Assembly: GCA_025055255.1 (NCBI GenBank)
Contig: JANWYI010000006.1
Coordinates: forward strand, 3,361-67,360
Length of the DNA stretch: 64,000 nucleotides
Direction of reading: 5' to 3'
DNA from: Anaerolineae bacterium
Lineage (GTDB): Bacteria > Chloroflexota > Anaerolineae > Aggregatilineales > UBA2796
Below, piece after piece: positions 13,662 to 23,073 of this stretch; positions within the stretch are counted from its first letter, which is position 1; every line of letters starts with the position of its first letter. A model generated the notes under the pieces. It worked only from the letters and a program-made list of their open reading frames with translations, did no database searches and was not told the DNA's origin. The position numbers were made by a program, and so were the translations under genes.

Positions 13662-14813
13662 TCACAAATTTGCACTTAGCACGCTGTTACGCGCCATGAG
13701 CTCTTCTGCTAACTTTGCCATTTGCGTTGCCACGATTGAAGTCGGCTGTAGCAGCACAATCGGTGTGCCTACCTCAGCTGCTTGCGCGGCTAACTCAGGC
13801 GCAGGCGTCACAAGGGCAAGAATTTCATGTCCAAGCGTGCGTTCCACCTCTTGCCAAGAGACGTGCGTCTGCGAAGGCGTGCGGTTGACCACAACTACGC
13901 CAATGCGCCCACGTCCTAAGCCCAGACCTTCTAACTCGCCCAGCAACTCGCGCGTCATCTGGAGCGCAATGCGGCTCGGTTCGGTCACTAGCACAACTTG
14001 ATCTACCTCGCGCACAAGGCGCGCAGTCAGGCGCGTTAGTCCGCTGCCCAAATCTACGACAATGTGACGTGCTAGACTGCGCAGGCTTTTCAGCGTTGCC
14101 ACGACCGAGTCGACGTTGACGTTGAGCAAGCTATCCTTCGGACGTGCTGAGCTGAGCAAGAGCTTCAAGCCGCTGGCATGTGCAGTCAGCTCTGCTTCAA
14201 CGGCACGTGGCATGATCTCTGTAGGCGCTCGTCCGAGCAAGTTCATCATGCCAGCAGCGCGCGGCGCATTCAGCACCAAACCTAGGCTGCCTTGCCCAGG
14301 TCGGATGTCAGCAAGGATGCTGGCAGCTTTCTGTTGCATGGCTGCAGCAATGTTCGCCGCTAACGTCGTCGTGCCAACACCACCTTTTGCACCTAGCAAG
14401 GCAATGATCGAGCCACCTTCAGCAGCTGTGCGCCGCTGCGCCGCGCTGCGCAGCAAGAGCGCCTTGACGCGCGAGGCGAGTTCAGCAGGATGTGTCGGCT
14501 TGGCAAGGTAGTCGTCGGCGCCAGCCTCAAAGCCTTGAACTTTGTCGTCAATCAATGTTTTGGCAGTGAACATGATGATGGGAATCGGCTGTGTGACGGG
14601 ATTGGCGCGCAGCCGACGGCAAATCTCATAGCCGTCTACGTCGGGCATCATAATATCAAGGATGATCAGGTCAGGGCGATCAGCCGCTGCACGGGCGAGA
14701 GCCTGCGCGCCATTGCTGGCTGCTATGACATCGTAACCTTGCCGCTGCAGCATCAAGCCGATCAGCTTCAGGCTGTCAAGATCGTCATCAACAATTAAGA
14801 TTTTCTCAGCCAT
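13662..14813 (-). CDS. Response-regulator receiver domain fused to CpaE/MinD-like ATPase
   Basis: N-terminal REC (KILIVDDDLDSLKLIG, LIILDIMMPDVDGYE, LAKPTHP), then deviant Walker A IIALLGAKGGVGTTTLAANIAAAM. Confidence 0.92.
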   Translation of the reverse strand: MAEKILIVDDDLDSLKLIGLMLQRQGYDVIAASNGAQALARAAADRPDLIILDIMMPDVDGYEICRRLRANPVTQPIPIIMFTAKTLIDDKVQGFEAGADDYLAKPTHPAELASRVKALLLRSAAQRRTAAEGGSIIALLGAKGGVGTTTLAANIAAAMQQKAASILADIRPGQGSLGLVLNAPRAAGMMNLLGRAPTEIMPRAVEAELTAHASGLKLLLSSARPKDSLLNVNVDSVVATLKSLRSLARHIVVDLGSGLTRLTARLVREVDQVVLVTEPSRIALQMTRELLGELEGLGLGRGRIGVVVVNRTPSQTHVSWQEVERTLGHEILALVTPAPELAAQAAEVGTPIVLLQPTSIVATQMAKLAEELMARNSVLSANL

Positions 14814-16076: not shown

Positions 16077-16388
16077 TTACTCAGAAGGCGGATAGGTGGT
16101 CACAACTGAGTTATCGCCGCTGAACGGATTCGGCACATATTTGTCCGCGTTCCAGTCGTTATGCCACACTGTGCCGTTGACCAAATAGCGGTATTGAAAC
16201 TCACGATTGAGCGGCAAATCCATCACCAGTGTGAAGCGTCCGTCCTTCTTCTTCTCCATCGGATGAGACGTCTCATTCCAGTCATTGAAGTCGCCGACGA
16301 GGTGGACTGTCTCAGCACCGTCTGCAATGGCGCGCGGCGCCTCAAAGGTGACCTTGCACTTTGTTTTCAGGAAGCTCTTCTTGATCAT
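16077..16388 (-). CDS. Small stand-alone E-set/CBM48 (isoamylase N-terminal-like) protein
   Basis: VTFEAPRAIADGAETVHLVGDFNDWNETSHPMEKKKDGRFTLVMDLPLNREFQYRYLVNGTVWHNDWNADKYVPNPF. Confidence 0.88.
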   Translation of the reverse strand: MIKKSFLKTKCKVTFEAPRAIADGAETVHLVGDFNDWNETSHPMEKKKDGRFTLVMDLPLNREFQYRYLVNGTVWHNDWNADKYVPNPFSGDNSVVTTYPPSE

Positions 16389-16497: not shown

Positions 16498-16526
16498 TTG
16501 ACGCGCACGCCTGCCCGTGCTACACT
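16498..16526 (+). promoter_or_regulatory. Sigma70-type promoter for nurA
   Basis: TTGACG - 17 bp - TACACT; SD-like GAGGAG and GTG start downstream. Confidence 0.6.
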
Positions 16527-16554
16527 TCTTGCCCAGCTGAGGAGACTCTGGCGC

Positions 16555-17760
16555 GTGACACTGCAGTTTGAGAAGTTGGAAGACCAAATTGTCCAGCTCG
16601 GTCTGACTTTAGCAGAGCGCAGCCACTCTGCAGCTGAGGAACTGCGCGCTGCAGCAGACCTACTCAGCCAGTTGGACGATCTCGACGCCATTTGGGAACA
16701 AATTAAGATCGCCCGTCAAAACGATGCAGGCTTTCGCGGTGCCGCGCCGTTCGATGAACCGATCAATCAGCCGATTCCGTTGCCAGAGTTGCCGCCGCGC
16801 GCTACACTCTTTGCCGCAGACGGCTCGCAGATTTACCCTGATGTCCACGCGCCTATACCTTACTGGCTGACCAATATCGGCGTCTTCATCTACCATCACG
16901 GCACTGATGACTTGCCTGAGATGCTCAGCGAGCCGCAGTTGTTCTTCCGCGATGAAGACGTGCGCCTGTCTGATGGTCAGCTTTTGCCCAACAACGTGAT
17001 CAACGCGCGCCGCACGGTCTACGAAATGCAGTTCTTGGCGCGCGTCGTCACTGAGCGGCAAACCAGTGCGCCGCCATTAGTCGCCTTCTGTGACGGTCCG
17101 CTGCTGCACATGCCTTTCGGCAAAGAAATCCCTGATGCTAGGCAGCTTGAGGCAGATTATCACGAAGCCTTCGACTTTTTCATGGACGCAGGCGCCGCGT
17201 TGCTCGGCTATGTAGATCGTCCAACAAGCCGTTTCGTGCTGTACACGCTTTATTTGATGACCTTGACGCCTGAAGAGATCACAGTCGCCAATCTCGGCGC
17301 GCTGCGCTTAGACGGCATGACTGACGCCGATCTATACAAGCCACTTCTACCGCCTGGCGCGCGCTCTGGCATGATGGTGCAACAGAGTCCGCTCAATAAA
17401 GACTACAAGGATCGCTTCAGTCCTGCGCACGAGATTGTGTTCTTCTATTTGAACACGGCTGCGCACGGACAAGCGCCATATCTTGCGCGCGTCGAGATTC
17501 CGCAGTGGGTTGCGCGTGACAAGGCAATGGTGAATGCTGTCCACGCGCTTGTCTACGATCAGTGTCAGATTATAGACCGTTATCCGTATGTGCTTACGCG
17601 CGCTGATGAGATCGCTGTTGTGCAGCCGACGGATAAGCGCGCTCTGGATGAGCGAATTGCGATTGAGTTGCTGCGGCACAGTCAGCCAATTGAGACTTCT
17701 CAAAAGCTGAGCCTGAAGTGGACAGCGCGGCACGGCAGGCGTCAGCACGAGGGCGTGTGA
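16555..17760 (+). CDS. nurA: NurA-domain nuclease (double-strand break repair)
   Basis: LFAADGSQIYPDVHAPIPYWLTNIGVFIYHHG, AFCDGPLLHMPFG, LLGYVDRP...; start assigned to GTG at 16555 (VTLQFEKLEDQ) based on SD and promoter. Confidence 0.85.
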   Translation: MTLQFEKLEDQIVQLGLTLAERSHSAAEELRAAADLLSQLDDLDAIWEQIKIARQNDAGFRGAAPFDEPINQPIPLPELPPRATLFAADGSQIYPDVHAPIPYWLTNIGVFIYHHGTDDLPEMLSEPQLFFRDEDVRLSDGQLLPNNVINARRTVYEMQFLARVVTERQTSAPPLVAFCDGPLLHMPFGKEIPDARQLEADYHEAFDFFMDAGAALLGYVDRPTSRFVLYTLYLMTLTPEEITVANLGALRLDGMTDADLYKPLLPPGARSGMMVQQSPLNKDYKDRFSPAHEIVFFYLNTAAHGQAPYLARVEIPQWVARDKAMVNAVHALVYDQCQIIDRYPYVLTRADEIAVVQPTDKRALDERIAIELLRHSQPIETSQKLSLKWTARHGRRQHEGV

Positions 17761-17761
17761 T

Positions 17762-18367
17762 ATGGAACTGTTGACCGATGTGCCAATGATCGGGCGCGTT
17801 TTGCGCGCCAGCACTACAGGTTTTGAGTGTGGCACGCGCAGCAGCGACCTCAGTGAGCCGCGCTTTGGCGCCTTTGTGCAGGCGCGCCGCCGCAACGACT
17901 CGACCATCATCATCGGCTTGATCTATGCCATTCGCGTGGACGATGATCCGCTTGTGCGTCAATTAATCATGGCAAACAACCTTAACGCCGCTACAATCCG
18001 CGACCAACGCGAAAATCGCATGGTGCCAGTTGAGATCAGCGTGATTACCGTTGGCGGCATGGAAGATAACATGCCAATCTACACGCTGCCGCCGCGTCCG
18101 CCGCTCAGCCTCGATCCTGTCTACTTGTGCGATGATGAGATGGTCTACACTTTCACGGAGCGCTTTGACTTTTTCCGCCTTGTGCTACAAGCCGCTCAAG
18201 TGCCAAGCGAGGAGCTACTTGCGGCGGCGCTACGCTTCGCTGCGGCTGTGCGTCCGCGTAACGAGCAGGCAGATTATTTGATCCGTGCCGGACGGCGTCT
18301 CGCACAGTTGCTCAGCGCCGATTTGCCGCGCCTACACCACCTGCTGCGCCTGATCCGTCCTACCTGA
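17762..18367 (+). CDS. Stand-alone HAS-barrel-like protein (HerA N-terminal-domain-like), no ATPase domain
   Basis: MIGRVLRASTTGFECGTRSSDLSEPRFGAFVQARRRNDSTIIIGLIYAIRVDDDPLVRQL resembles a HAS barrel; starts 1 bp after the nurA stop; no Walker motifs. Confidence 0.65.
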   Translation: MELLTDVPMIGRVLRASTTGFECGTRSSDLSEPRFGAFVQARRRNDSTIIIGLIYAIRVDDDPLVRQLIMANNLNAATIRDQRENRMVPVEISVITVGGMEDNMPIYTLPPRPPLSLDPVYLCDDEMVYTFTERFDFFRLVLQAAQVPSEELLAAALRFAAAVRPRNEQADYLIRAGRRLAQLLSADLPRLHHLLRLIRPT

Positions 18368-21789: not shown

Positions 21790-22491
21790 ATGATACGTCT
21801 GATACTTGTGGTAATTGCCCTGAGCCTGGTCCTTTCCGCCTTGATTAATACAGCGCGCTCTTCTGGCAGTTCGCAACCTTTAACGCTCGATCAGCTTTTC
21901 ACTGGCGCCAATGGCGAAGCCTGCGCGTCGCTATGCATGTTAGGCGTGACGCCAAGCCAGACGTCTTTTGTGGATGCTAACCGTCTCGTGCGCCAACATC
22001 CGCTCGTGCGCGGTCAGTTGCTGACCGAGCGCGTAAACGGCAACTTAGTCGAACTGATTGGCGTGGACATCACAGTGGTGCTGCTGCGCGGTAGACGTAA
22101 CGAACTCGCCCTGATCAGCATCCATACTGAGCCGTTCAACACGGTCATCTTGCCTGCTGAGCGCTTCAGTCAGAATTATGTGCGAGTCGACTCGCTTGGC
22201 ACACTGGGCGACGTCCTAGCGCGCTTCGGCACGCCTGCGCGTGTACTGGTGCCGCGCCGCAGCACTAACATGATGCGTCTGTTCTATCCGCAGCACAGCA
22301 TGGTTATCACCAGCCAAATTGCCAGCAGGTCAGGTGAGACGCACGTGCGCACAAGCGATCAAGTGCAGTACATCGGCATCAGCGCACTGGAGCAGTACCG
22401 CGACGCATGGCAGGGACTAACTCTATCCGCGACCGCATGGCATGGCTTCAGCCGCGCTGTGCGCTATTTGCAGACATCGCGCCAACCGTGA
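21790..22491 (+). CDS. Secreted hypothetical protein with ANGEACASLCMLGVTPSQT motif (paralog of next ORF)
   Basis: Signal peptide; shares C-x3-C-x-LGV motif and overall layout with 22492..23073. Confidence 0.7.
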   Translation: MIRLILVVIALSLVLSALINTARSSGSSQPLTLDQLFTGANGEACASLCMLGVTPSQTSFVDANRLVRQHPLVRGQLLTERVNGNLVELIGVDITVVLLRGRRNELALISIHTEPFNTVILPAERFSQNYVRVDSLGTLGDVLARFGTPARVLVPRRSTNMMRLFYPQHSMVITSQIASRSGETHVRTSDQVQYIGISALEQYRDAWQGLTLSATAWHGFSRAVRYLQTSRQP

Positions 22492-23073
22492 ATGAAGCGC
22501 CTATTGTGCTTGCTGAGCATCTGTAGCGCATTGCTCACAGCGCTGAGCCTAGCTGCGCGCGCACTTGGCACACAGCAAGTTTCACCTTACATAGCTTATT
22601 TCAGCGCCGCAGACGGCACATCTTGTGCCACGCCGTGTCTGTTCGGCGTGCAGCCGACGCATCTAGCGCTCAGACCAATCATCAAGCTCTTACAGGCGCA
22701 TCCGTTGACGGCACAAGGCGATCAAGGGCTGTTCAATAACGATCTCGCCGTCTTCGGCACGGATCAGTTCACTGTCATCGTCAGTCAGGCAAGTGACCCT
22801 GTCATGTTCGTCACCTTTATCGAGCCGTTGCCGCTTGGCGAAGTTTTGGCTGCTTTCGGCGCACCTAAACTCAGCTTTTTTCAGCGCACGCGGCACGGAC
22901 TGAGCCAGACGTTGCTCTTCGCTGAAGGACAGCTCTTGGCGGAAGTGTGGCACGCACCAGCAGCGACGCACAGCAGTCTGCGAGCAGCGGTTGTGCGGTT
23001 AGGCGTGGCGACGCGCGGCTTCAATCAGCGCGGCGCTTCACTGTGGCGCGGCTTGAGCGCGCTCAAGCCTTGA
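22492..23073 (+). CDS. Secreted hypothetical protein with ADGTSCATPCLFGVQPTHL motif (paralog of previous ORF)
   Basis: Signal peptide; adjacent to upstream paralog (starts right after its stop). Confidence 0.7.
   Translation: MKRLLCLLSICSALLTALSLAARALGTQQVSPYIAYFSAADGTSCATPCLFGVQPTHLALRPIIKLLQAHPLTAQGDQGLFNNDLAVFGTDQFTVIVSQASDPVMFVTFIEPLPLGEVLAAFGAPKLSFFQRTRHGLSQTLLFAEGQLLAEVWHAPAATHSSLRAAVVRLGVATRGFNQRGASLWRGLSALKP

Follow-up and report, generated by a model that had tools for sequence, protein, structure and literature searches.

The known NurA-HerA systems, in Deinococcus, Sulfolobus, and Thermococcus, are described with two components: the nuclease NurA, and HerA, which has a HAS barrel, a DUF87 motor and Walker motifs. 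The papers that we found treat them as a two-protein machine. A dimer of NurA sits on the HerA HAS barrels in Deinococcus and Thermococcus, with two NurA to six HerA, and in the solved complexes the HAS domain mediates NurA binding (PMC9960219, PMC12977600), as had been assumed in an earlier, sequence-only reading of the locus described here. A 2026 paper named Deinococcus-Thermus as the bacterial phylum holding the NurA-HerA operon and argued for a possible role of the archaeal HerA-NurA in the destruction of foreign DNA (PMC12977600). The archaeal genes are clustered with mre11-rad50, as are some of those described below. No third component of NurA-HerA was described in the open-access papers that we searched. 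Iyer et al. 2004, reportedly the survey that defined the HAS barrel, is outside the scope of that search and could hold a prior mention.

We analyzed a window of 64,000 nucleotides from an Anaerolineae bacterium (Chloroflexota) in which nurA is followed by a gene for a 201-amino acid protein, for which we use the working name HASX (Table 1). NurA-HerA is widespread in Chloroflexota and is accompanied there by this conserved third gene, whose predicted product is a free HAS barrel followed by a helical tail. The HASX family is probably an unrecognized third part of the NurA-HerA machine and not half of a broken motor.

The nurA-hasX locus

The first gene of the pair encodes a NurA-domain nuclease, as originally read. 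The protein matched PF09376 with 80.3 bits (E = 2e-22), over the curated cut-off of 21, and it is the only NurA in the source genome. Residues D89-G90-S91, E157, and D180 are conserved in the family. D89, E157, and D180, putative catalytic acidic residues of the active site, are kept in 51 or more of the 54 sequences compared. GTG was the best start codon, and the starts of most homologues fall at the same position of the alignment. No NCBIfam model matched the NurA or the HASX of the window at E ≤ 5, and HerA was the only protein matched by PADLOC models.

The hasX start codon (ATG at 17762) lies 1 bp past the nurA stop codon (TGA at 17758-17760), and the gene after hasX encodes a PD40/WD40-like propeller protein; both had been noted from the sequence. 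The promoter match upstream of nurA had been called clear. The site is present, but four further sites with equally many consensus bases (9/12) lie within 2.7 kb, compared to 1.0 ± 1.0 in shuffled sequence, and "clear" is therefore an overstatement.

Table 1. Features of the nurA-hasX locus, in window coordinates.
Feature	Position	Strand	Support
sigma-70-like promoter match, TTGACG-17-TACACT, extended -10 TG	16498..16526	+	9/12 consensus bases, putative
nurA, 401 aa, GTG start	16555..17760	+	PF09376 match, family-conserved columns, start placement
hasX, 201 aa, stand-alone HAS-barrel-like	17762..18367	+	weak PF09378 match, AlphaFold2 model, Foldseek, synteny

Elsewhere in the window, a stand-alone CBM48/AMPK-type glycogen-binding module of 103 amino acids is encoded at 16077-16388 (minus strand), divergent from nurA, and a ParA/MinD-like ATPase fused to a response regulator receiver domain at 13662-14813 (minus strand). 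Two consecutive, similar-looking open reading frames without a Pfam match (233 and 193 amino acids) lie at 21790-23073 (plus strand); each carries a C-x3-C motif and, at its N-terminus, a hydrophobic segment, and they are possibly a duplicated secreted family.

Sequence and predicted fold of HASX

HASX is not a HerA. The protein has no DUF87 ATPase and no Walker A or Walker B motif, and the absence of G-x4-GK[ST] agrees with the original observation that it lacks Walker motifs. Residues 10-59 matched PF09378, the Pfam family of the HerA N-terminal HAS barrel, with 13.3 bits (E = 0.09), short of the Pfam cut-off of 25.2. Fifteen of 47 family members matched PF09378 at E ≤ 0.1 (best E = 3.5e-5), and most members scored under the cut-off. 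The best sequence-profile match in the PDB was the N-terminus of TdpA, which is related to HerA (residues 34-138 of HASX, E = 0.16).

The HASX sequences fall into two groups, which joined at E = 7e-13 in an independent profile comparison with no members in common. Group 1 matched the N-terminus of the HerA-2 subfamily over 107 columns with P = 0.0012, a stronger signal than that between the HerA-1 and HerA-2 subfamilies (P = 0.012). The same type of comparison gave no signal between group 2 and the HerA-2 N-terminus; the profile link to HerA therefore rests on group 1 together with the fold.

The predicted fold of HASX resembles HerA-family translocases. As proposed in the sequence-only reading, we built an AlphaFold2 model of HASX (mean pLDDT 77.3, pTM 0.75); its input was six sequences, of which five shared more than 80% similarity. 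The model has strands at residues 9-16, 20-27, 38-43, 49-59, and 88-101; the barrel and linker take up about residues 9-122, and the tail, at residues 125-198, is helical. When the model was compared to the PDB with Foldseek, all 50 of the matches listed were HerA-family chains, 27 of them at E ≤ 0.001, and the best had E = 1.4e-5 (probability 1.00). TM-scores normalized by query length were modest (mostly 0.37-0.46), and the lack of any counterpart to the helical tail accounts for at least part of this. An orthologue with 52% identity gave a weaker model (pLDDT 66.8), for which HerA-family chains occupied ranks 1-28. The match appears to fall on the N-terminal barrel of HerA, to which the strand pattern and the TdpA and Pfam alignments point.

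The resemblance had been placed in the first ~70 residues of HASX. The Pfam match, weak as it is, the PF09378 matches of relatives, and the predicted fold are all consistent with a HAS barrel; the extent was too short, given the span of the modeled barrel and linker. As in HerA, a PP linker and then a strand come after the barrel of HASX, but in HASX a predicted helical bundle takes the place of the ATPase domain. The top fold matches included the HerA chains of the SIR2-HerA and DUF4297-HerA defence complexes, and TdpA of TdpAB. Those two defence complexes have two components, a full-length HerA and a partner other than NurA, and no stand-alone barrel. TdpA, unlike HASX, is a full translocase, and we saw no phosphorothioation genes adjoining hasX.

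Distribution and gene order

The source genome (3.6 Mb in 230 contigs, 92% complete) encodes one full-length HerA, on a contig other than that of nurA. This HerA of 570 amino acids has its own HAS barrel and DUF87 domain, with Walker A (GKSGTGKS) and Walker B (LLITIEEAH) motifs, and is the best DUF87 match of the genome. The gene after herA encodes an unrelated protein of 386 amino acids. Several other genomes of the same taxonomic order likewise have herA on a contig separate from nurA-hasX. In relatives, nurA and herA are neighbors. The claim that no HerA ATPase stands beside the pair thus holds locally but not in relatives, where herA is the next gene, and its absence at the window is therefore a displacement in this lineage. 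It had also been held that a canonical full-length HerA elsewhere, pairing with this NurA, would refute the proposal. A full-length HerA is encoded elsewhere in the genome, but HASX is conserved along with it, and so the coupling of nurA and hasX still needs explaining.

The order of the three genes is fixed. In all 50 of the Chloroflexota loci we fetched that have nurA, hasX, and herA on one stretch, the genes occur in that order on one strand. A single-sequence search found HASX in 101 of 150 genomes of the class. Of these 101, 78 had nurA near hasX (39 also with herA, 38 without herA, and one with herA at a looser distance), 52 had herA near hasX, and 39 had all three in a row, such that 38 had nurA-hasX only versus 12 with hasX-herA only. 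We also considered that HASX might be missing from part of the class. This was rejected for the nurA-herA-linked loci that the single-sequence search had missed and that we fetched: in 16 of 16, a profile search placed a diverged HASX right between the two genes.

HASX and NurA occur together across the phylum. Among 301 Chloroflexota genomes, HASX was found in 173 and NurA in 187, with both in 170, HASX only in three, NurA only in 17, and neither in 111 (Fisher's test, 2e-59, a value uncorrected for phylogeny, related genomes being non-independent). Outside the class set, 75 of 109 placed HASX/NurA pairs were directly adjacent. In Dehalococcoidia-like loci (L153-L159), other genes part nurA from hasX, and hasX overlaps or touches herA. 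These counts, with the fixed gene order, bear out conservation of the pair across the phylum, a further check proposed in the original reading.

The gene trio is also found on haloarchaeal plasmids. A group-2 HASX query matched four such plasmids, with E-values from 1e-11 to 1e-21 and identities of 26.6-36.1%. Three of the four carry mre11-rad50-nurA-hasX-herA, in that order and with hasX annotated as "hypothetical protein", and in the fourth the nurA match is just past the origin of the record. Searches of plasmids with the HASX of the window, the NurA of the window, and another group-1 HASX gave no matches. The same five genes are present in four Chloroflexota group-2 loci (L188/L161, L189/L065, L190/L075, and L191/L162); in group 1, hasX remains together with nurA and herA, and mre11-rad50 does not adjoin them. 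The NurA, HASX, and HerA trees, built from 53 loci, had an identical basal bipartition, in which the haloarchaea always fell with group 2. Separately, a "DES-1 beta-lactamase" call on one haloarchaeal plasmid (L174, 2710-2871) overlaps the end of the ATP-binding (HerA) gene and is probably a spurious annotation.

HASX is part of one NurA-HerA lineage and not of all. Three loci (L184, L186, and L187) have a second, different nurA-like gene with herA directly after it and no hasX; the genomes concerned carry the hasX lineage as well. Five loci (L175-L177, L179, and L180) have rad50-nurA without hasX, and likewise none was seen at L077-L080. In some large-genome Chloroflexota (L177, L179, L180, and L192), a CPCG zinc-finger-like protein of ~220-226 amino acids is conserved after nurA in place of hasX.

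Possible roles of HASX

We favor the view, with somewhat better than even confidence, that HASX serves one NurA-HerA lineage as a dedicated third component, docking on NurA, the HerA ring, or both. The predicted fold, synteny, and co-occurrence uphold the earlier reading of HASX as a HAS-barrel-like protein that stands alone and is coupled to NurA. HASX would be a motor-less barrel like the N-terminal docking domain of HerA, extended at the C-terminus by a helical bundle of its own. In the known complexes NurA is held by the HerA HAS barrels, and the simplest reading is that a free barrel encoded between the two partners binds there as well. Most likely, HASX would bind where the HerA HAS ring meets NurA, contacting NurA, the HAS ring, or both, and would adapt or regulate how DNA passes from the ring into the nuclease, with a possible effect on resection or degradation. 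In the source genome, the HerA motor would be supplied in trans from the other contig. HASX may act as a bridge, a regulator, or a chaperone, and DNA repair and defence are equally open as roles of the system. A more specific proposal, for which we judge the chances to be even, is that throughout this lineage, in Chloroflexota and on haloarchaeal plasmids, HASX sits as a free HAS barrel between nuclease dimer and hexameric motor and is an obligatory third subunit, sometimes encoded within a five-gene operon.

HASX could instead be a brake or chaperone that mimics the docking domain of HerA and caps NurA in the absence of a HerA ring, keeping it inactive or stable until HerA displaces HASX. This is possible, if rather unlikely. 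It draws on the same fold and synteny, and the 1-bp gap between nurA and hasX suggests coupled synthesis. The many genomes with nurA-hasX adjacent and no herA next door (38 versus 12 with hasX-herA only) also fit. However, the joining of hasX to herA, apart from nurA, in the Dehalococcoidia-like loci suggests that HASX works with HerA too, and other NurA-HerA pairs manage without HASX.

It is unlikely that HASX merely shares the operon and acts on another target, such as Mre11-Rad50 or a replication protein. The mre11-rad50 genes are present at some hasX loci, but in group 1 hasX stays beside nurA and herA where mre11-rad50 is not a neighbor, and 170 of the 173 genomes with HASX have NurA. Less probable still is that HASX is a motor-less subunit mixed into the HerA ring, like the non-catalytic subunits of other rings. 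The two proteins have a barrel fold in common, but the HerA ring forms at the junctions of the ATPase domain, which HASX lacks, and HerA retains its Walker motifs and, in the source genome, a full barrel.

Finally, for the source genome we dismiss the suggestion of a split HerA, with HASX as its barrel half and the ATPase half elsewhere: no ATPase adjoins HASX in the window, but the best DUF87 match of the genome is a full-length HerA with its own barrel and Walker motifs, so HASX is not a missing half, and in relatives HASX and a full HerA are neighbors. Once this is set aside, an adaptor or regulator is what survives of the original proposals.

If HASX is a subunit of the NurA-HerA machine, then it would offer a handle on how a nuclease with two-fold symmetry fits a motor with six-fold symmetry, and on the switch between resection and full degradation of DNA. 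Its role is testable with the three genes of one operon.
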